From positions 1 to 30,141 of the IMG/VR virus record IMGVR_UViG_3300046028_007200: a stretch of 30,141 bases of DNA, one strand, 5' to 3'. The position numbers and the translations under genes were made by a program. The notes under the pieces were generated by a model. The model worked only from the letters and a program-made list of their open reading frames with translations, did not search any database and was not told where the DNA came from. Shown in pieces: positions 2,389 through 27,344 of the stretch (position 1 is its first letter; every line of letters begins with the position of its first letter). The DNA is from a virus.

Positions 2389-2586
2389 TTACGGTTTATA
2401 ATTTTTATTAAAATATTTATTATAAATAACTACACCTAATATAAGTGTTACTATTACACCTACTAATGTAGTTGCAGGAAGAAATACATAAAACCAAGAG
2501 AAATATGTATTTATTATAAGTTTATAGTAAATTAATATAAGTGTTAACTGTCCTATAAGGAATGGTATGTAAAATTGAAGTTTCAT
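2389..2586 (-). CDS. Small two-helix membrane protein (65 aa)
   Basis: The product is almost entirely hydrophobic, with one segment at about residues 3-20 (LQFYIPFLIGQLTLILIYY) and another at about 32-54 (VFLPATTLVGVIVTLILGVVIY), and a basic tail (NKYFNKNYKP). It overlaps the stop of the upstream endonuclease gene in an ATGA arrangement (2583-2586), so translation is probably coupled. It could be a holin-like or superinfection-type membrane protein, but nothing in the sequence selects a role. Confidence 0.6.
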   Translation of the reverse strand: MKLQFYIPFLIGQLTLILIYYKLIINTYFSWFYVFLPATTLVGVIVTLILGVVIYNKYFNKNYKP

Positions 2587-3911
2587 AAAGGTGTGTTGTT
2601 TAGTAAATATTCTTCTAAGGTTTTTATTATATTTTTATCTGTATAAGGTATTCTTAATAAATTAATATCATTATCTTTACAGTATTTATTTTTAATTTCA
2701 TCACGAATTTGCGTTTCAATAAAAGATTTTTCACCACCAAACCATTCTATTGGTTTAAAATGTTGTTCTCCATCGTATTCTATGCATAAATTATATTCAG
2801 GTAGGTAAAAATCAAAAGTTAATACTTTTTTATATTTGCAATTACTGAATTTATGTTGTGGTATATATTTTATATTCTTATCATTTAGTAATTTACTTAT
2901 CTTTCTTTCGCCTAGGGATTCATTACAATATGGGCAACCACATTGACTAGATATGTGGTGTGATAATTTTTGTTTAAAACTTTTTTTACAACTATTACAA
3001 TAAATATCAATTTTATCTTTATTTGAATTAAAAATTACATTATCATAATTAAATTTATTTTTACTGTGAACTTTTTTTGCTTTTATTAAAAAATCTTCTA
3101 AACTCATTTTTAATGAATTTGATGTTTTTTCTGTACCGCATTTAGGACATCCTGTGGCATTTTTACCAATTAAATAACTAGAAATTGTTTCAAAATCACC
3201 ATGTTTATTACAGGTAACAATAACATTTGTTTTTGAATTTATATATTTAACCTTATCGTATTTATATTTATCACCGTGAGTGTTAATTAATTCTTTAATA
3301 AAGCATTCATTACTTTTATTTGTTTTATCACTTAAACACTGTTCACAATTTGTTGAACCATTTATATGATGTTTAGGTTTTTGATAAAAAAAAGTATTGT
3401 GTTTATTACACTGAATTTCAACAGCAGTATTGCAATTAATATATTTTATATTATTATAATTGTATTTATTTAAATGTATTTCTTTTGATTTATTAATAAA
3501 TAAATTTTTATATTCATCATTTTTACAATCTTTACAAGATGTTTTGTCTAATAATTGTGATGCTTTTATATTATAATACCCATGTTTTTTACAACCAATA
3601 ATTACATCTTTATTTATATTATTATATATTACTTTATCATATAAAAAATTATCACCATATATATTTTTTATTTTATTAATAAATTCTTCGTTAGTAAAAC
3701 TTCTTTGTTGTGAATTATATTCTTTCGCACATAATGAACATCCATGTTTTGAATAAATAAAATTACTTATTTTATTATCAAAATCACCATGAATATTGCA
3801 AGTTATTGTTATAATATCATTATAATTTTTAAATGATAAAACTTTGTCAAAATTAAATTTATCACCAAAAATTTTAAAAGATTTATTTTTTAAAATTTCT
3901 ATATTATTCAT
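2583..3911 (-). CDS. Freestanding homing-type endonuclease with five zinc modules
   Basis: A 442-residue protein in two parts. Residues about 10-330 hold five tandem modules of roughly 50-65 residues, each running from a K.N[FY].Y..V-type strand through C-x2-H-G (or C-x2-C in the fifth) to a C-x2-C knuckle (CSLC, CKDC, CEQC, CPKC, CPYC). Residues about 330-442 form a nuclease domain starting GERKIS, with FDFYLPEYN then IEYDGEQHF and a later R.D..K..Y. This is the core of the PD-(D/E)XK/Vsr-like endonucleases of phage homing genes (DUF723-type zinc modules with a DUF559/Vsr-like nuclease). It lies directly behind the uvsX terminator with no obvious promoter of its own. Such genes are selfish mobile elements that cut allelic sites lacking them; the target site is not known. 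Confidence 0.8.
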   Translation of the reverse strand: MNNIEILKNKSFKIFGDKFNFDKVLSFKNYNDIITITCNIHGDFDNKISNFIYSKHGCSLCAKEYNSQQRSFTNEEFINKIKNIYGDNFLYDKVIYNNINKDVIIGCKKHGYYNIKASQLLDKTSCKDCKNDEYKNLFINKSKEIHLNKYNYNNIKYINCNTAVEIQCNKHNTFFYQKPKHHINGSTNCEQCLSDKTNKSNECFIKELINTHGDKYKYDKVKYINSKTNVIVTCNKHGDFETISSYLIGKNATGCPKCGTEKTSNSLKMSLEDFLIKAKKVHSKNKFNYDNVIFNSNKDKIDIYCNSCKKSFKQKLSHHISSQCGCPYCNESLGERKISKLLNDKNIKYIPQHKFSNCKYKKVLTFDFYLPEYNLCIEYDGEQHFKPIEWFGGEKSFIETQIRDEIKNKYCKDNDINLLRIPYTDKNIIKTLEEYLLNNTPL

Positions 3912-3925
3912 ATATATTATATTTT

Positions 3926-3951
3926 AAATACCCCCAATTAAGGGGGTATTT
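3926..3951 (-). terminator. Terminator hairpin after uvsX
   Basis: A perfect 10-bp inverted repeat (AAATACCCCC / GGGGGTATTT) with loop AATTAA lies 4 nt past the uvsX stop codon. A five-G/C run is exceptional in this A/T-rich DNA. The U-tract on the minus strand is short, so read-through into the endonuclease gene is likely. Confidence 0.75.
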
Positions 3952-3954
3952 TAT

Positions 3955-5100
3955 TTAATCTACATCTTCATCTTTTGTAACAATTTCAGTTGTTTTTATT
4001 TCAACATCAGCATCTTCTGGAATACCTAATTTAGATAATAAAAATAATTTATTTTCTTTTTTGTATTCCTCAACACCATCAACAGAAATAAATTTGTGCA
4101 TTGTACTAATAATTTTATTCTCAGTACTAACCCCAGTAATATGATTTTTAATACATTTAGCTTTTACTTCAATACCATATTGATAACTATATTTTACACC
4201 TTTATATGTACATTCAGCATAAAGTTTTCTTGTACCATGTGTTAATTGACCACCAAGTAAATAAATTGCCCTGGCACTATAAAAAAATGTTTCACCACCT
4301 TTCATCTTAATAGAACTTCCATTCATGTTATCTAGCCATATCTTATTGACCGCCAGCACTGTATTGGTATATTGTCTATTCATTTTTCTAGAAGCAGGTA
4401 TTCTATAATTTAATAATGATTGAAATTGTGTTGCATATGCACCAGCAGCAAATTGATTATTTCTAGAACCTAATGCACTTTTTTCATCTGCAAGAACACC
4501 GATAGAATCTAATGTAATTAATAATGAGTAATCTAAATTACCATCTTCTTGTTCATCAAGAAGATGATTAATGCAAGCTGCTAAACCTTCAATTGTTGGT
4601 TCTTTTAACTTATTATTACGTTTTTTATCGTAATTATCTAATATATATTGTGAATTTATATATAAAAAGAAACCATCATAACCATTAATTTCACCAGTTT
4701 CTTCATCACAAACCTCTTCAAATTCCATACCCATTAATTTTGCACGTTCAAATGAAAAATTATTTTCAAGGTCAATAATTACTGGTAGTATACCTTTTTT
4801 TTGTGAGCCAACAATTGCTTCCATTACTAATGTAGATTTTCCAACACTTGAAAACCCTGCTACAATAGAAACATAACCGATAGCTATACCTAATCCTGTT
4901 GCTTCTTCAAATGCTGGTGAAACCCTAATATAATCTAATGTTTTATCTTTAACTTCATCATTTAAATTATTTTTTTGTTTAAAATCATTTAAACTAAACG
5001 ACTTTTTTTCCATAGGTTTTTTCCTTGTTGGAATATTCTTATCTTCAATAGTATTTTCAACATTACTATCTACTATATTTTTATCTACTGGTTTTTTCAT
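3955..5100 (-). CDS. uvsX: UvsX-type RecA-family recombinase
   Basis: A RecA/UvsX strand-exchange ATPase, which would load onto SSB-coated single-stranded DNA and drive recombination-dependent replication. The Walker A loop GFSSVGKST is at 82-90, the family glutamate region follows (IIDLENNFSFERA, about 109-120), and the Walker B strand LLITLDS is at 193-199. Later stretches rich in N, Q and T (about 212-260) fit the DNA-binding loops. Length is 381 residues against 391 for T4 UvsX. The N-terminal 50 residues are lysine-rich and low in complexity and the C-terminus is acidic (KDEDVD), as in UvsX, where the tail tunes DNA binding. It lies downstream of the SSB gene on the same strand, with two hairpins between them. 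Confidence 0.9.
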   Translation of the reverse strand: MKKPVDKNIVDSNVENTIEDKNIPTRKKPMEKKSFSLNDFKQKNNLNDEVKDKTLDYIRVSPAFEEATGLGIAIGYVSIVAGFSSVGKSTLVMEAIVGSQKKGILPVIIDLENNFSFERAKLMGMEFEEVCDEETGEINGYDGFFLYINSQYILDNYDKKRNNKLKEPTIEGLAACINHLLDEQEDGNLDYSLLITLDSIGVLADEKSALGSRNNQFAAGAYATQFQSLLNYRIPASRKMNRQYTNTVLAVNKIWLDNMNGSSIKMKGGETFFYSARAIYLLGGQLTHGTRKLYAECTYKGVKYSYQYGIEVKAKCIKNHITGVSTENKIISTMHKFISVDGVEEYKKENKLFLLSKLGIPEDADVEIKTTEIVTKDEDVD

Positions 5101-5234: not shown

Positions 5235-6140
5235 TTAGAATGGCATATCATCATCACCAAGACTTGCAATTTTTTCTGCATTTGTTTTTGGTTTCGATGT
5301 TTTAGGTTCTTCTGTTGGGACACCTACTTTTTTCGACCATTCATCATCACTTAAAATTTCATTATCAGAACCACCTTCTTCTTCATATACTACATTACTA
5401 GGTGTAGTTGCTGTTTTAGGGGTTGTTGGTAAGATATTATAATTAACCTTAGATAAGTTAGGTAAGATATCTTTTTCAATTACGTCTAAATAAAATTGTT
5501 GATGTTTTTTATGATTTTTAATTTCAGCTTCTTCACCATCGACAATTTTTTTAATCATTGTTGGTGGGACATCTGCTTTGAAGTCATATTTCCAAGATGC
5601 TTTTGTTTTATCTTCACCACCATCTTTTGGTGCTGCGAATCTAAAAAAGTCTTTTGAACCGCTAACCCAATCTTTATCATGTCTTAAAGTAAGATTGAAA
5701 TTAATTTCTGTTTTACCGTTTTTTTGTGATTCATTTTTGATAATAGATAGTTTAATTAAACCATATGATTTAATATTTGCTAAACTATTTAGCATGGTGC
5801 TTACCATACTGTTTACTCTACCTTCATTATTTGTAAATGGTAATTGTAGAATATAATTTTCATTATCATCATCTGTAAATGAAAATTTAACATTTGGTGC
5901 TGGAATAATCTTTCCTGTTGAATCTTTATATGTAGCTTCTGAATCAACTTTAATATCCAATAGATAGCCATGAAATGGTAGTGGATAGTTAGCTGAGTTT
6001 TTTATTAGGGTGTGTACATATTTTCCATCCCTTTTTTCTGATAATTGGAAAAATTTTCCTAAGATAATATCGCCATTTTTTTCGGAGATAACTTTTAACC
6101 ATTTTACTGGTTTTGCGGTGTTTTGTGTTTCAAATCCCAT
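5235..6140 (-). CDS. gp32-like single-stranded DNA-binding protein with bacterial SSB-type tail
   Basis: A 301-residue SSB, the same length as T4 gp32. It should coat single-stranded DNA during replication and recombination. The central OB-fold-like region (about 30-190) shows FRFAAPKDGG and repeated aromatic strands. Residues 225-301 are a low-complexity acidic tail ending LGDDDMPF. That ending is the bacterial SSB C-terminal tip (DDDIPF in E. coli), which docks host repair and replication proteins. I find no cysteine in the protein, so the zinc site of T4 gp32 is absent. An A/T-rich leader with a TTG-N19-TACCTTTG promoter precedes the ATG at 6140. The SSB assignment is strong; direct homology to gp32 rather than another phage SSB family is less certain. 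Confidence 0.85.
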   Translation of the reverse strand: MGFETQNTAKPVKWLKVISEKNGDIILGKFFQLSEKRDGKYVHTLIKNSANYPLPFHGYLLDIKVDSEATYKDSTGKIIPAPNVKFSFTDDDNENYILQLPFTNNEGRVNSMVSTMLNSLANIKSYGLIKLSIIKNESQKNGKTEINFNLTLRHDKDWVSGSKDFFRFAAPKDGGEDKTKASWKYDFKADVPPTMIKKIVDGEEAEIKNHKKHQQFYLDVIEKDILPNLSKVNYNILPTTPKTATTPSNVVYEEEGGSDNEILSDDEWSKKVGVPTEEPKTSKPKTNAEKIASLGDDDMPF

Positions 6141-9766: not shown

Positions 9767-10606
9767 TTATCCTTTTAATATTTTCTTACCCCAAAAGTTA
9801 GTGGTTTCTTTATTATTATTTATTTGTTCATCTTTATATTGTTCGTATCTTTCAACAACTTCAATAAGAAATGGACTTCTCATTATATCTTTAGTAGAAA
9901 ATTCAAATATTTTAATATCTTTAATATCTTTAACCATATTAATAAAATCTAGTAATTTAACATCTCTTCGTTTGATATCGAATTGTGAAACGTCTCCCAT
10001 AATAATTGCCTTGCTCTCTCTTCCTGTACGTGTTAACCATAACATTAATTGTTGCATTGTACAATTTTGTGCTTCATCAATTAACATTACTGAATTAGAA
10101 TATGTTTTACCACGCATGAATGCTAATGGTTGTACAATAATAAAACCACCTGTTTTTAATAATTCAAGTGTAAATTTACCGATAATTAATTCAAAATTAC
10201 TATAATAAGATTCAATATACGGACTTACTTTTTCATCTTCATTTCCAGGGAGAAAACCCATATTTTCACCAGATTCAACCATTGGTTTGGTTAGGATTAT
10301 TTTATCAACTTTACCGTCAGCTAATAATGTTAGTGCAGCATAGCATGCTGATAATGTTTTTGATGTACCTGCTGGTCCTGATATAATTGTTAATATATTA
10401 TTTCTAATATCTTTTTGTAAAGATAATTGTTTTTCTGTTAAAATAATTGGTGATTTATCTATATCAGATTTTTTTAAAAAATCACTAATTTTATTTGTTT
10501 TACCTTTATTATTTAAATTATTAACCGATACTTTATGTACTGATGGTGTATAATCTTCAATATCGGTTAATGATACTTTTTTTGCTCTACTTTTTGAAAC
10601 AGCCAT
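9767..10606 (-). CDS. phoH: PhoH-like ATPase
   Basis: A 279-residue PhoH-family P-loop NTPase, common in myoviruses, where it is thought to act on RNA or DNA; its exact role in phage is not settled. The N-terminal 50 residues are basic and low in complexity. The helicase-like core begins at TEKQLSLQKDI, with Walker A GPAGTSKT at 77-84, LTKPMVESGENMGFLPG (105-121, the family motif after strand 2), Walker B MLIDEAQN at 174-181, and the sensor segment IIMGDVSQFD (about 196-205). All catalytic motifs are intact. It heads the 10606-to-7292 run with the HAD-like and glycosyltransferase genes. Confidence 0.92.
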   Translation of the reverse strand: MAVSKSRAKKVSLTDIEDYTPSVHKVSVNNLNNKGKTNKISDFLKKSDIDKSPIILTEKQLSLQKDIRNNILTIISGPAGTSKTLSACYAALTLLADGKVDKIILTKPMVESGENMGFLPGNEDEKVSPYIESYYSNFELIIGKFTLELLKTGGFIIVQPLAFMRGKTYSNSVMLIDEAQNCTMQQLMLWLTRTGRESKAIIMGDVSQFDIKRRDVKLLDFINMVKDIKDIKIFEFSTKDIMRSPFLIEVVERYEQYKDEQINNNKETTNFWGKKILKG

Positions 10607-10634: not shown

Positions 10635-10805
10635 TTAGTTAATTACTTCTGCCGAAGGCTGTTCTTCTAGTCCTTGTTGTTTTTTTATATATTCATCAAC
10701 CATAGTTCTGAACATTTTTTCTTGTTTTTTCTTAGCTTCAACACTTTTTTGTTTAAAACTAGCGACCTTTTTCGCATGGTTTTTTCTATTTTTTGATACT
10801 GCCAT
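10635..10805 (-). CDS. Small lysine-rich basic protein (56 aa)
   Basis: The ATG at 10805 opens a 56-residue frame starting MAVSKNRKNHAKKVASFKQK, followed by a helical KKKQEKMFRTMVDEYIKKQQ segment and an acidic tail. The MAVSK start is shared with PhoH (MAVSKSRAKK) just downstream. This may reflect a duplicated N-terminal tag or start region. High lysine content suggests nucleic acid or ribosome binding. It starts 1 nt after the stop of the upstream 73-aa gene, which supports it as a real, coupled gene. Confidence 0.65.
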   Translation of the reverse strand: MAVSKNRKNHAKKVASFKQKSVEAKKKQEKMFRTMVDEYIKKQQGLEEQPSAEVIN

Positions 10806-16920: not shown

Positions 16921-18090
16921 TTGTTTAAAATAGTTTTTATTAATTGTTTGTTAATATCGATTTATTTTTATATCTTAGCGAGATATTCTAATCCAATAAA
17001 CTTTATTAAACAAAAAACGTACATATCAATTCCAAAGGTTATTTTAAATCATTTAGATTCAAAAGAAGATTTTACTATTGTAGAGTTCTTTTTTAAACTA
17101 AAAGGTTTGACTAATTGTGGTTGTATTCACAATTACAGGAAGAAGTATGTGTTTTTGTCAGGTGAGCTTGGTTTATGTGAATCTTCTGTTAGGAAGAGAA
17201 TTTCTCTTTTGAAAGAAAAAGGATTATTGTGGACAGATAGTAATGGTAGTTTATTTATTGGAGCGAAAAGTAAAATAATTGAATATCTTGGATACAAAAA
17301 TAATTATGATAGACAAACTTCTGACGTAAAATTTAATTCATTAAAAATTAAAAAAGAAGTTATTTATGGTTTAAATACCAAATGTGATTCTGATGGGTGT
17401 ATAATAAATGATGATTTAATAATTAATGGTAAAAAAGTTTATGATATACATAATATTAAATATTGGGATACAAAAATAAATTATGGTAAAAAATCTAATG
17501 ATGCAAAAGAAAAATTTAAGTTAATTCTGTATAGTTATAAGTTCAATAATAATATTGAACAACAGAAAAACGCTTATAAACAAAAACATGTCAAAAAAGT
17601 AATAGGTAGAAAAATCACCGATAATAAAAACCATATATCAACATATGATAAAAAAGTTGTTAAACAAGCTAATAAGCAAGTAGACAATAAATTATCAGAA
17701 CTTTTGTTGAATGATAAACACAGTGTGAAATTAATACTCAATAATATTGACAACAGTAAATTAATTACTGAATTTATTAAAAATAATAGAAATACAAATT
17801 TTACTTTATCTAGAAAAGGTTTAGCTAAACAAGCTGGATTTAAATCACCTAGTACAGGTACTAATATCATTAATAAACTAAAAAAACTTAATCTTATTAA
17901 TAAAGATGAAGTTAATGAATATGTTTTTAATGATAATGGTATTTTATTTGATGATTTATCATTTAATGATAATATAAATAAACTTGGTAGAATTTACTAT
18001 TCTAGTAAAAAGAAATCAACAATACTTAAATATTCAAATAACTTAGAATTTAATAACTTTGAGTTAGAGTTTTCTTTTTTACAATTATAA
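16921..18090 (+). CDS. Winged-helix DNA-binding protein without an ATG start
   Basis: A plus-strand gene set between minus-strand tail genes. It encodes two helix-turn-helix-like units: residues about 79-104 (LSGELGLCESSVRKRISLLK, a typical wHTH recognition helix pair followed by a KGLL wing) and about 285-320 (FTLSRKGLAKQAG then NIINKLKKLNLINK). The middle is lysine/asparagine-rich. It is probably a transcriptional regulator or replication-initiator-like protein. No methionine codon occurs anywhere in the frame. The frame can open at TTG 16921, but the first 25 residues then look like non-coding hydrophobic translation. A start at ATA 16996 (then NFIKQKTYISIPK) gives a more natural N-terminus. 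TTG-N20-TATCTTAG, near the Bacteroidota promoter consensus, lies just before it. The true 5' end is therefore uncertain. Confidence 0.65.
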   Translation: MFKIVFINCLLISIYFYILARYSNPINFIKQKTYISIPKVILNHLDSKEDFTIVEFFFKLKGLTNCGCIHNYRKKYVFLSGELGLCESSVRKRISLLKEKGLLWTDSNGSLFIGAKSKIIEYLGYKNNYDRQTSDVKFNSLKIKKEVIYGLNTKCDSDGCIINDDLIINGKKVYDIHNIKYWDTKINYGKKSNDAKEKFKLILYSYKFNNNIEQQKNAYKQKHVKKVIGRKITDNKNHISTYDKKVVKQANKQVDNKLSELLLNDKHSVKLILNNIDNSKLITEFIKNNRNTNFTLSRKGLAKQAGFKSPSTGTNIINKLKKLNLINKDEVNEYVFNDNGILFDDLSFNDNINKLGRIYYSSKKKSTILKYSNNLEFNNFELEFSFLQL

Positions 18091-24699: not shown

Positions 24700-25581
24700 A
24701 TGGAAAATAAAGAAAATTTAGACTTTACGAAAGGATTACGTTTTAATGAAGGTAAAATTAGGTATGAATTAATACCTGAGAACGCATTAAAAGAATGGGC
24801 TAAGGTGTTAACCTATGGTGCTAATAAATATACTATAAAGGATAGTAAAACAGGTGTTATATTGAATGATGGTGCAAACAATTGGAGAAAAGGTTTACCT
24901 TGGAAAGATGTTTTAAGTTCATTGAAAAGACATATTCAAGATTTTGAAATCGGTATTGATAATGATGATGAATCCCAATTAAAACATCTAGGTCATGCAA
25001 TGTGTAATATCGGTTTTCTTTTAGAATATTATAAGATATACCCAGAAGGTGATAACAGAAATCATAATTATTTAAATAAAAAGAAAGTTGGTTTAGATAT
25101 TGATGGGGTATTAGCTGATTTTTCAGGTAGATTTATTGAAGAAGCCAAAAAACATAATGTTTATTCAAAAGATTATACATTTACACAATCACATTGGGAA
25201 TTTCCTTATGAATGGGGTAGTATTTGGAATAAAATTAAAGATAATGAAGAGTTTTGGCTATCAATAAAACCATTAGTACCTTCAAATGAACTACCTTTTG
25301 AACCAGAATGTTATGTAACAGCTAGGAATATACCAACAGAATGGACTGAAAAATGGTTATCTTTAAATGGTTTTCCTTGTAAACCAGTATATTCAACAAA
25401 TTACGGTAGTAAAGTAAAAAAGATTAAAGAACTAAAACTTGACATCTTTGTAGATGATTGTTGGGATAATTTTAAAGAATTAAATCAAAATGGTATTTGT
25501 TGTTACTTATTTGAAGCTGAATATAATAAAAAATATGATGTAGGGTACAAAAGAATTAAAAATTTAAACGAATTACTATAA
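24700..25581 (+). CDS. Fused dATP/dGTP diphosphohydrolase and HAD 5'-nucleotidase
   Basis: A 293-residue two-domain protein. Residues 1-115 match the dATP/dGTP diphosphohydrolase N-terminal family (formerly DUF5664, which includes cyanophage S-2L MazZ). The features are GLRFNEGKIRYELIPENALK, YGANKY (39-44), NNWRKGLPW (60-68), H78 with EIGIDND, and HLGHAMCNIGFLLEYY (96-111). Residues 128-293 form a HAD 5'(3')-deoxyribonucleotidase: DIDGV with D133 and D135 (motif I), VTAR with T207 (motif II), basic K238/K240 region (motif III) and VDD with D252 and D253 (motif IV). All core residues are intact. Together the domains could take dNTP to dNMP and then to nucleoside. It is first in a plus-strand operon with its own promoter and overlaps the next gene by 1 nt (TAATG). 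The Z-genome enzyme PurZ is not in this window, so 2-aminoadenine chemistry is not claimed. Confidence 0.8.
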   Translation: MENKENLDFTKGLRFNEGKIRYELIPENALKEWAKVLTYGANKYTIKDSKTGVILNDGANNWRKGLPWKDVLSSLKRHIQDFEIGIDNDDESQLKHLGHAMCNIGFLLEYYKIYPEGDNRNHNYLNKKKVGLDIDGVLADFSGRFIEEAKKHNVYSKDYTFTQSHWEFPYEWGSIWNKIKDNEEFWLSIKPLVPSNELPFEPECYVTARNIPTEWTEKWLSLNGFPCKPVYSTNYGSKVKKIKELKLDIFVDDCWDNFKELNQNGICCYLFEAEYNKKYDVGYKRIKNLNELL

Positions 25582-25895
25582 TGAATATTATATATAAACC
25601 AGGATTAATTGCATTTATTTGTAATGATATTACAGATTTTAACGGAATGAATAATAATGAATATTATCCAATTACAAAAGAATCTGATTTAATCTGTAAA
25701 AGATTTAAAGATGTAATTAAAGATGTTTTTTATATTGGTGATGATAGTTTATATAATATTACTAAACAATATTGTATTGAAAAAAATAGTTATTATAAAT
25801 CTGAATTCACATTAGAAGAACAAATAGAAATTATTGAAAAACAAATGCAAGATTTAAAGAAAATTAAAAAAGAATTAAAACAAAAATTAAAATAA
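25581..25895 (+). CDS. Hypothetical 104-aa protein
   Basis: A soluble protein with a beta-type first half (MNIIYKPGLIAFICNDITDF, then EYYPITKESDL) and a lysine/glutamate-rich C-terminal coiled-coil (EEQIEIIEKQMQDLKKIKKE). It is coupled to the fused nucleotide enzyme by a one-base stop/start overlap and lies 2 nt before the MazG-like gene, so it may assist these enzymes. No family is recognised. Confidence 0.6.
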   Translation: MNIIYKPGLIAFICNDITDFNGMNNNEYYPITKESDLICKRFKDVIKDVFYIGDDSLYNITKQYCIEKNSYYKSEFTLEEQIEIIEKQMQDLKKIKKELKQKLK

Positions 25896-25897
25896 AT

Positions 25898-26518
25898 ATG
25901 TTAGAAGTAGAAAAAATATTATTAGAAAAGGTAAGAGAATTTCAATTATCATTTAATCACCATATTGGTAATGGTATCAATTTCCCATCTGAAAAAAATT
26001 GTAATTTAAGATTAGACCTTATTAATGAAGAAGAAGGTGAATACATTAAAGGTGTTAAAGAAGAAAATAAATTAGAAATCGTTGATGGTCTATGCGATTT
26101 AGCATACGTTATTGCAGGTGCTTATTTAACTTTTGGAATTAAACCAAAAACTAGTAAAGACCACTTCGTTAGCGATGAATTATATATCGAATCTTGTAAA
26201 AATAAAGATTTTATTGGCGTTCAAAGATATTTAGATTATAAATCAAAACAATTAAAGAACTACATAAAGAAACATCAATTTAAATCGTTTTTAAGTGCGT
26301 TCTACGAGACCCATAGAAGTAATATGTCCAAAGCATGCTCTTCACTAGAAACTGCTCATAAAACTATGGCACAAGATAAATATAAAGATATTCCTGTTGA
26401 ATTTATTCAAAGAGATGGTTTGTATTTTATACATAAAAAAGAAAATAGTAAAACAATTAAATCAATTGATTATTCAGAAGCTAATTTTACACCATATATA
26501 AATGATATTACAGTATGA
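25898..26518 (+). CDS. MazG/PRA-PH-like nucleotide pyrophosphohydrolase
   Basis: A 206-residue all-alpha protein. The first 85 residues carry the MazG-superfamily metal-binding pattern, EEEGEYIKG (EExxE) followed by EIVDGLCDLAYVIAGAYLTFG (ExxD). The remaining 120 residues (from about KPKTSKDH) include a second helical part with NMSKACSSLETAHKTM, seen in phage MazG-like and phosphoribosyl-ATP pyrophosphohydrolase-like proteins. It would hydrolyse NTP or dNTP to NMP and pyrophosphate. It is in operon with the fused dNTP diphosphohydrolase/nucleotidase, so the two probably act on the same pool. Confidence 0.75.
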   Translation: MLEVEKILLEKVREFQLSFNHHIGNGINFPSEKNCNLRLDLINEEEGEYIKGVKEENKLEIVDGLCDLAYVIAGAYLTFGIKPKTSKDHFVSDELYIESCKNKDFIGVQRYLDYKSKQLKNYIKKHQFKSFLSAFYETHRSNMSKACSSLETAHKTMAQDKYKDIPVEFIQRDGLYFIHKKENSKTIKSIDYSEANFTPYINDITV

Positions 26519-26745
26519 AAATAAATATCACATTCGATTTAGATAATATAGAAAGTGATGATAATATAAATTATAAAATATATTCTCAATCAATGGAAAT
26601 GTATTGCGTTCTATTTGATATGTTAGAACATCTTAGATATAAAATAAAATATTCAGATAATGAAGATGAAATAAAATATGCAGAAGAAACTAGAACAGTA
26701 CTACTTGAAAAAATAAATGAAAATAATATAAAAAACTTTTATTAA
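26515..26745 (+). CDS. Hypothetical 76-aa protein
   Basis: A small acidic protein: MKINITFDLDNIESDDNINY, followed by a helix with MEMYCVLFDMLEHLRYKIKY and another with EIKYAEETRTVLLEKINE. It overlaps the MazG-like gene in an ATGA arrangement and closes the operon. Helix pairs of this kind are widespread in phages; no function is recognised. Confidence 0.6.
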   Translation: MKINITFDLDNIESDDNINYKIYSQSMEMYCVLFDMLEHLRYKIKYSDNEDEIKYAEETRTVLLEKINENNIKNFY

Positions 26746-26771
26746 TATTAGGTTTTTAAAATAAAAAACAC

Positions 26772-26779
26772 TATAATTG
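26772..26779 (+). promoter_or_regulatory. Putative -7 element of the Hc1 gene (TATAATTG)
   Basis: Same octamer as in promoter cassette 1 on the other strand, 30 nt before the ATG at 26809. Its match to TAnnTTTG is partial and there is no clear -33. Confidence 0.3.
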
Positions 26780-26808
26780 TATTATAATAATTTAAACAAA
26801 TAATAAAA

Positions 26809-26997
26809 ATGGAAGATTTAATTAAATCAATGATTGAAAAACACGAAACAGCAGTTTCTGAAATGAGTAAATTCAACGAAAAAGGAGTTATGGCTTCTGG
26901 TTCAAGAGCCAGAAAAGCACTTGGTGAAATTGGTAAAATTACAAAAGAATTGAGAAAAGCAATTCAAGATGTAAAAAATACTAAAAAAACTGCTTAA
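26809..26997 (+). CDS. Hc1-family histone H1-like DNA-binding protein
   Basis: A 62-residue basic, helical protein whose sequence matches the Hc1/bacterial histone H1-like family common in Bacteroidota. It has a first helix (EDLIKSMIEKHETAVSEMSK), the F-x-x-K-G turn (FNEKGVMASGSRARKALGEI) with the family signature RARKAL, then a second helix ending in a lysine-rich tail (KNTKKTA). Such proteins bind DNA non-specifically and compact nucleoids. In a phage it could package or coat phage DNA, or perturb the host nucleoid. It stands alone between the nucleotide operon and a strong bidirectional terminator. Family confidence is high; the role in the phage is inference. Confidence 0.85.
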   Translation: MEDLIKSMIEKHETAVSEMSKFNEKGVMASGSRARKALGEIGKITKELRKAIQDVKNTKKTA

Positions 26998-27030: not shown

Positions 27031-27066
27031 AAAAACTACCTATTATTAATTTAATAGGTAGTTTTT
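27031..27066. terminator. Strong bidirectional terminator
   Basis: A perfect 15-bp stem (AAAAACTACCTATTA at 27031-27045 with 27052-27066), loop TTAATT, with A-runs and T-runs at both ends. It separates the plus-strand Hc1 gene from the minus-strand 89-aa gene. Confidence 0.85.
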
Positions 27067-27074
27067 CTTTATTA

Positions 27075-27344
27075 TTACCTATTAACTCTCATTACTTTAT
27101 TTAAAGGTATATTATATCCATTTGGGTCAATTATAGCTTCATAATCTAATGTTTCTTCATTTTCAATATATTCAATTTCCAACCAATCACTTGTTTTTGG
27201 GTTGTCACTACCAAAGGCATCACGAACCTTTGCACTATCACCATCATCTGATAACATAACTTCATAACCACCAGAATTTGATTTAGTATAAAATCCATGT
27301 GCAATAAAATCTTCTTGATTTTCCTTAATAATCTTTTTAACCAA
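27075..27344 (-). CDS. Hypothetical protein with a frame break at its N-terminus
   Basis: The downstream frame reads VKKIIKENQEDFIAHGFYTK and continues to an acidic alpha/beta protein ending NKVMRVNR. It has no in-frame ATG; TTG at 27344 is the only conventional start. Upstream the frame stays open and reads ITLNELRTLVKKII, an N-terminal helix of the kind seen in many T4-like phage virion and core proteins. An ATG at 27387 (MQNKK) lies in another frame, and a run of 11 A (minus strand; 27378-27368) separates it. With 10 A the reading would be MQNKKKITLNELRTLVKK and so on. The gene may therefore use slippage at the A-run, or the run may be miscounted. The function is unknown. Confidence 0.6.
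   Translation of the reverse strand: MVKKIIKENQEDFIAHGFYTKSNSGGYEVMLSDDGDSAKVRDAFGSDNPKTSDWLEIEYIENEETLDYEAIIDPNGYNIPLNKVMRVNR

Follow-up and report, generated by a model that had tools for sequence, protein, structure and literature searches.

A tail-less Hc1-family protein encoded in a phage fragment with a likely Bacteroidota host, and the gene neighbourhoods of its viral relatives

The stretch of DNA analysed here (the window) is a virus record from IMG/VR (IMGVR_UViG_3300046028_007200), some 30 kb (30,141 nucleotides) in length and with a GC content of 23.5%. It is clearly only part of the genome of a larger tailed phage, and among its genes are those for a UvsX-like recombinase, an exonuclease, PhoH and nucleotide pyrophosphohydrolases. 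The gene under study is an open reading frame of 62 codons plus stop, starting with ATG, which follows on the same strand a dATP/dGTP diphosphohydrolase/NT5C-like gene, a 104-aa ORF, a MazG-like gene, a 76-aa ORF and a gap of 63 nt (Table 1). In the first gene of this series (24700-25581) a dATP/dGTP diphosphohydrolase N-terminal domain is fused to a 5'-deoxynucleotidase-like part. The idea of a modified-base (Z) genome, which such an enzyme raises, was rejected, since no member of the adenylosuccinate-synthetase family was found in G005 (the nearest large kin of the window phage), G007, G019 or the Flavobacterium phage immuto. The scan returned no relatives of a neighbouring 293-aa protein, and no tRNA or Rfam family was found within the window.

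Table 1. Features at and around the Hc1-family gene, in window coordinates
Feature	Position	Strand	Remarks
Nucleotide-metabolism genes upstream	24700..26518	+	dATP/dGTP diphosphohydrolase + NT5C-like part, 104-aa ORF, MazG/PRA-PH-like protein
Preceding ORF	26515..26745	+	76 aa, no family match
Upstream gap, 63 nt	26746..26808	+	room for promoter; none recognised
Hc1-family gene	26809..26997	+	62 aa, pI 9.8, net charge +5
Helix 1 codons (predicted, residues 2-25)	26812..26883	+	AlphaFold2; 4 K/R vs 6 D/E
Helix 2 codons (predicted, residues 28-61)	26890..26991	+	AlphaFold2; 10 K/R vs 3 D/E
Bidirectional terminator, perfect 15-bp hairpin	27031..27066	.	between convergent genes
Convergent ORF	27075..27344	-	89 aa, no family match

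The hairpin downstream of the gene (folding z -4.6) has terminator scores on either strand; it is a bidirectional terminator that closes the block and is shared with the convergent ORF. The earlier note had credited the gene with a terminator of its own and had taken this as a sign of regulated, possibly strong expression; the hairpin is indeed there, but it is not the gene's own, and the suggestion about expression is not supported; no TAnnTTTG, the -7 element of Bacteroidota, was found within 80 nt upstream of the gene. A strong promoter belonging to the gene was also considered and found no support: sigma-70-like sites in the window are no commoner than in shuffles (105 vs 96), so that no promoter rises above the AT-rich background.

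The ORF is a real gene and a member of the Pfam family Hc1. In hmmscan, PF07432 matches it with 42.9 bits (curated cut-off 23.5 bits; E 4.3e-11), the alignment spanning model positions 2-57 of 57, and the profile search suggested by the earlier note therefore places the product inside the family. The GC content by codon position (40/35/14%) shows a coding bias and fits a coding gene in a genome of 23.5% GC. The core residues of the family, namely the Arg and Lys of RxRK and a later Arg, are all present (R33, R35, K36 and R49). Searches made with the window's own peptide patterns, RARKALGE included, which biases the sampling, retrieved relatives at 33 bacterial loci and at least 387 viral loci of IMG/VR, taking the ORF far beyond a chance match, and upholding the call of a phage-encoded Hc1-family protein; Hc1 genes are thus common in environmental phages. 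Among other resources, NCBIfam profiles and a PDB sequence search gave zero matches to the protein, and PHROGs gave just weak ones, to two families of unknown function.

The AlphaFold2 model, computed as a single chain from an alignment of 34 sequences, consists of two helices with a mean pLDDT of 96.5. The three arginines that are invariant or nearly so across 103 distinct Hc1 sequences (R33 and R49 in all of them, R35 in 102) sit in the predicted helix 2. This helix is amphipathic (hydrophobic moment p 0.004), and the moment of its lysines and arginines is not significant (p 0.29). The helix-turn-helix-like layout reported previously is right as far as two helices joined by a turn are concerned, but it does not extend to a DNA-binding HTH: the model is a helical hairpin, and neither the winged-helix domain nor the three-helix HTH domain of eukaryotic linker histone H1 and other HTH proteins was found in it. 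Fold searches of PDB and BFVD gave no match with E < 0.001, since a helical hairpin is too plain for this kind of comparison.

The family takes its name from chlamydial Hc1 (HctA), and we take the Pfam model to correspond to the N-terminus of that protein. Chlamydial Hc1 dimerises through its N-terminal domain and binds DNA through its lysine-rich C-terminal domain (PMC2848022); the full-length protein binds DNA with nanomolar affinity and, when expressed ectopically, compacts DNA and represses growth (PMC8343073). The phage protein shares the conserved N-terminal domain, but its ORF stops after it and lacks the lysine-rich DNA-binding tail, so that DNA compaction is not transferable by homology alone. 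Binding of nucleic acid nevertheless stays plausible, since the invariant residues are basic. The missing tail is also a warning that the family name is in itself no ground for annotating such genes as DNA-compacting histones.

RARKAL, which spans residues 33-38, had been read as a signature of Hc1 from Bacteroidota, and our data do not bear this out. Among the matches retrieved, the nearest cellular relatives are from Spirochaetes (L082, L085 and L086), which share the RARKALGE core at ~58 aa and up to 55% identity, but come from bacterial genome bins. Bacteroidota do encode Hc1-family proteins themselves, and the few copies sampled read RVRNAMQ, RTRKRMM and RIRKGMQ at this site. In the best tree, built on 58 alignment columns with three Bacteroidota rows, all Cytophagales, one group joins Bacteroidota with phages that are kin by UvsX, and another holds Spirochaetes, Nitrospinota and most viral sequences; the window protein falls, on a long branch, in the second group, with the RARKALGE sequences of viruses and Spirochaetes. 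Forcing it into the group of Bacteroidota and UvsX kin was not rejected (AU p 0.39 on these 58 columns), and the tree is compatible with a recent gain from the host as well as with an old phage lineage.

Of 30 records with a related UvsX, 7 carry an Hc1 gene, two of these being 194-195 kb long, and the remaining records are mostly fragments; the near-identical contigs L115-L120 are uninformative, because they end short of the Hc1 region. The Hc1 of G005 is only 19% identical to the window copy and has a net charge of +1, an example of the low charge of some relatives. Such comparisons suggest that Hc1 may have been exchanged between lineages. The gene is also carried by huge phage records of 462-642 kb, and one phage record of 634,780 bases (LR745206.1; L218, L222 and L226) has two Hc1 matches, of 61 and 26 bits.

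The surroundings of viral Hc1 genes were surveyed in 40 dereplicated loci, with gene families assigned from one representative each. In 11 loci Hc1 has an SbcC/gp46-like gene (phrog_77) close upstream, mostly with at most one small gene between them, and an SbcD/gp47-like gene (phrog_100) is found in nine loci of the survey. In 4 other loci Hc1 has a gp33-like late-promoter regulator (phrog_254) before it and a gp59-like helicase loader (phrog_269) after it, and a single-stranded DNA-binding protein (SSB; phrog_224, gp32-like) follows further on. In total, Hc1 stands among replication or recombination genes in 15 of the 40 loci, which share ancestry and are not independent events. The gp46-like gene neighbours both core subtypes of Hc1, GVKA and GN-A, suggesting that this association may be old. 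Many of the neighbourhoods favour a role in replication or recombination over one in packaging. In the papers found we saw no description of this synteny. With gp46/gp47-like genes in some loci and gp59/gp32-like genes in others, it leads to a specific hypothesis open to testing, and we regard it as the most useful outcome to build on. In six UvsX kin (L206-L211, at ~9-11 kb, L208 reversed) Hc1 belongs to a different cassette, with a putative cell-wall hydrolase 0.8-1.5 kb away; this conserved cassette of small genes without assigned function comprises proteins of ~157 and 74 aa, Hc1, a membrane-like protein of 70 aa and one of 206-257 aa. The window copy matches neither the replication/recombination setting nor this cassette, following nucleotide-metabolism genes and not standing beside replication genes.

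Our preferred reading, to which we give a probability of about 0.42, is that the window Hc1 is a small nucleoid-associated protein, weakly basic and able to dimerise, that works on phage DNA within the infected cell. The short tail-less protein would form one helical hairpin that dimerises via its hydrophobic face, the conserved basic residues (Arg and Lys) of helix 2 would touch nucleic acid independently of sequence, and the protein would serve replicating and recombining phage DNA in the cell and not act as a packaged virion histone. What is observed or predicted here comprises the gene and its family membership, the fold model, the distribution of charges and the clustering of many viral relatives with replication and recombination genes, and from these we infer dimerisation, nucleic-acid binding and the intracellular role. 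The reading is argued for by the Pfam match, the conservation of R33, R49 and R35, the confident hairpin, the amphipathic, basic helix 2, the dimerisation of the chlamydial N-terminal domain (PMC2848022) and the 15 syntenic loci. Counted against it are the absent tail, the lack of a significant one-sidedness of lysines and arginines on helix 2, the low net charge of some relatives, the cassette near the hydrolase and the position of the window copy away from replication genes. A more specific version, speculative and in our opinion rather unlikely, is that phages have retained tail-less Hc1 proteins as dedicated partners of recombination-dependent replication (gp46/gp47, gp59, gp32), nucleoid factors organising replicating DNA, and that the window copy represents a lineage that passed from phage to phage and left the cluster.

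Three other explanations were weighed against the nucleoid-associated one. The hairpin could be an adaptor, a module for dimerisation or protein binding directed at a replication or recombination protein of the phage or at a host protein, itself not organising DNA. It does correspond to the family domain with a documented dimerisation role in Chlamydia, and the Hc1 genes of relatives are fixed beside gp46-like or gp33/gp59-like genes; still, we consider it improbable, as the invariant residues are basic, which suits nucleic acid, and the many free-living bacteria that have the family do not share such a partner. Equally doubtful is a role in host takeover, in which Hc1 would join the host nucleoid, perhaps paired with the host's own Hc1, and silence or reorganise host transcription. 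The Hc1-family proteins of Bacteroidota and the compaction and growth repression caused by full-length HctA (PMC8343073) would agree with it, but HctA, to which those effects belong, has the DNA-binding tail and the phage version lacks it, the neighbours of the relatives are phage replication genes and not early takeover genes, and an early promoter was not recognised. The least probable of the three is a virion or packaging protein that neutralises or condenses phage DNA, even though such a role has been proposed for moraphages (PMC12619734) and the hydrolase close to Hc1 in the six UvsX kin marks an inferred late region: 62 aa at a net charge of +5 make a poor charge neutraliser, and the neighbours in the 15 loci are replication or recombination genes. 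We know of no detection of Hc1 in phage virions.

The presence of Hc1 in phages is already known. Histone H1-like Hc1 proteins (PF07432) have been published in moraphages, large phages of aquatic settings whose predicted hosts are Bacteroidota (PMC12619734). Their likeness to the window phage is one of gene family and predicted host; the lineage is to all appearances a different one. In the Synechococcus phage S-SRM01 an annotated 'Histone H1' (QPX48246.1) has, like ours, 62 aa, a RARKAL core and no tail, at ~40% identity; however, this phage belongs to the Kyanoviridae and has a cyanobacterial host, and the core reads RARKALQE, of the GN-A subtype. In immuto, whose UvsX is remotely related to that of the window, gp196 (YP_010114487.1) is a 57-aa protein with a weak Hc1 match (21 bits), but this score is below the Pfam cut-off, and the gene is annotated as hypothetical and adjoins GroEL/GroES. 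No experiments on any phage Hc1 were found in the literature, and immuto, a cultured Flavobacterium phage, offers a possible bench model through gp196.

Concerning the phage itself, the best UvsX comparisons are with a 195-kb IMG/VR contig (83% identity) and, among named phages, with the Flavobacterium immuto phages (39% identity), the closest of these. The order of recombinase and exonuclease is common to the window and immuto; in immuto an SSB gene precedes them, and in the window this position is occupied by an ORF with no family match (5235-6140). TAnnTTTG occurs six times within the 80 nt upstream of window genes, against 1.6 times in simple mononucleotide shuffles. Given these elements and the UvsX kinship, a Bacteroidota host, as the earlier note had implied, is likely.

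Between the UvsX and exonuclease genes the window encodes a 442-aa HNH/homing-type endonuclease (2583-3911), which is missing at the same place in L119 and L120, with flanking genes ~90% identical. L120 has a 41% identical copy at 3392-4444, upstream of its PhoH gene. The PhoH-like protein of the window (9767-10606) is 47% identical to that of L119 (2690-3499) and 39% to that of L120 (4458-5258), and the genes flanking it are 82-94% identical between the window and these two contigs; it looks as if the PhoH gene had been replaced, perhaps driven by the nearby endonuclease. Adjoining PhoH, a small lysine-rich protein of 56 aa (10635-10805, MAVSKNRKNHAKK...) with no Pfam or PHROG match is conserved in L119 and L120 at 81-88%. 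Finally, a 389-aa ORF on the plus strand (16921-18090), flanked by two large structural-type genes on the minus strand and with no PHROG match, looks to the eye like a DNA-binding or replication-initiator type protein.
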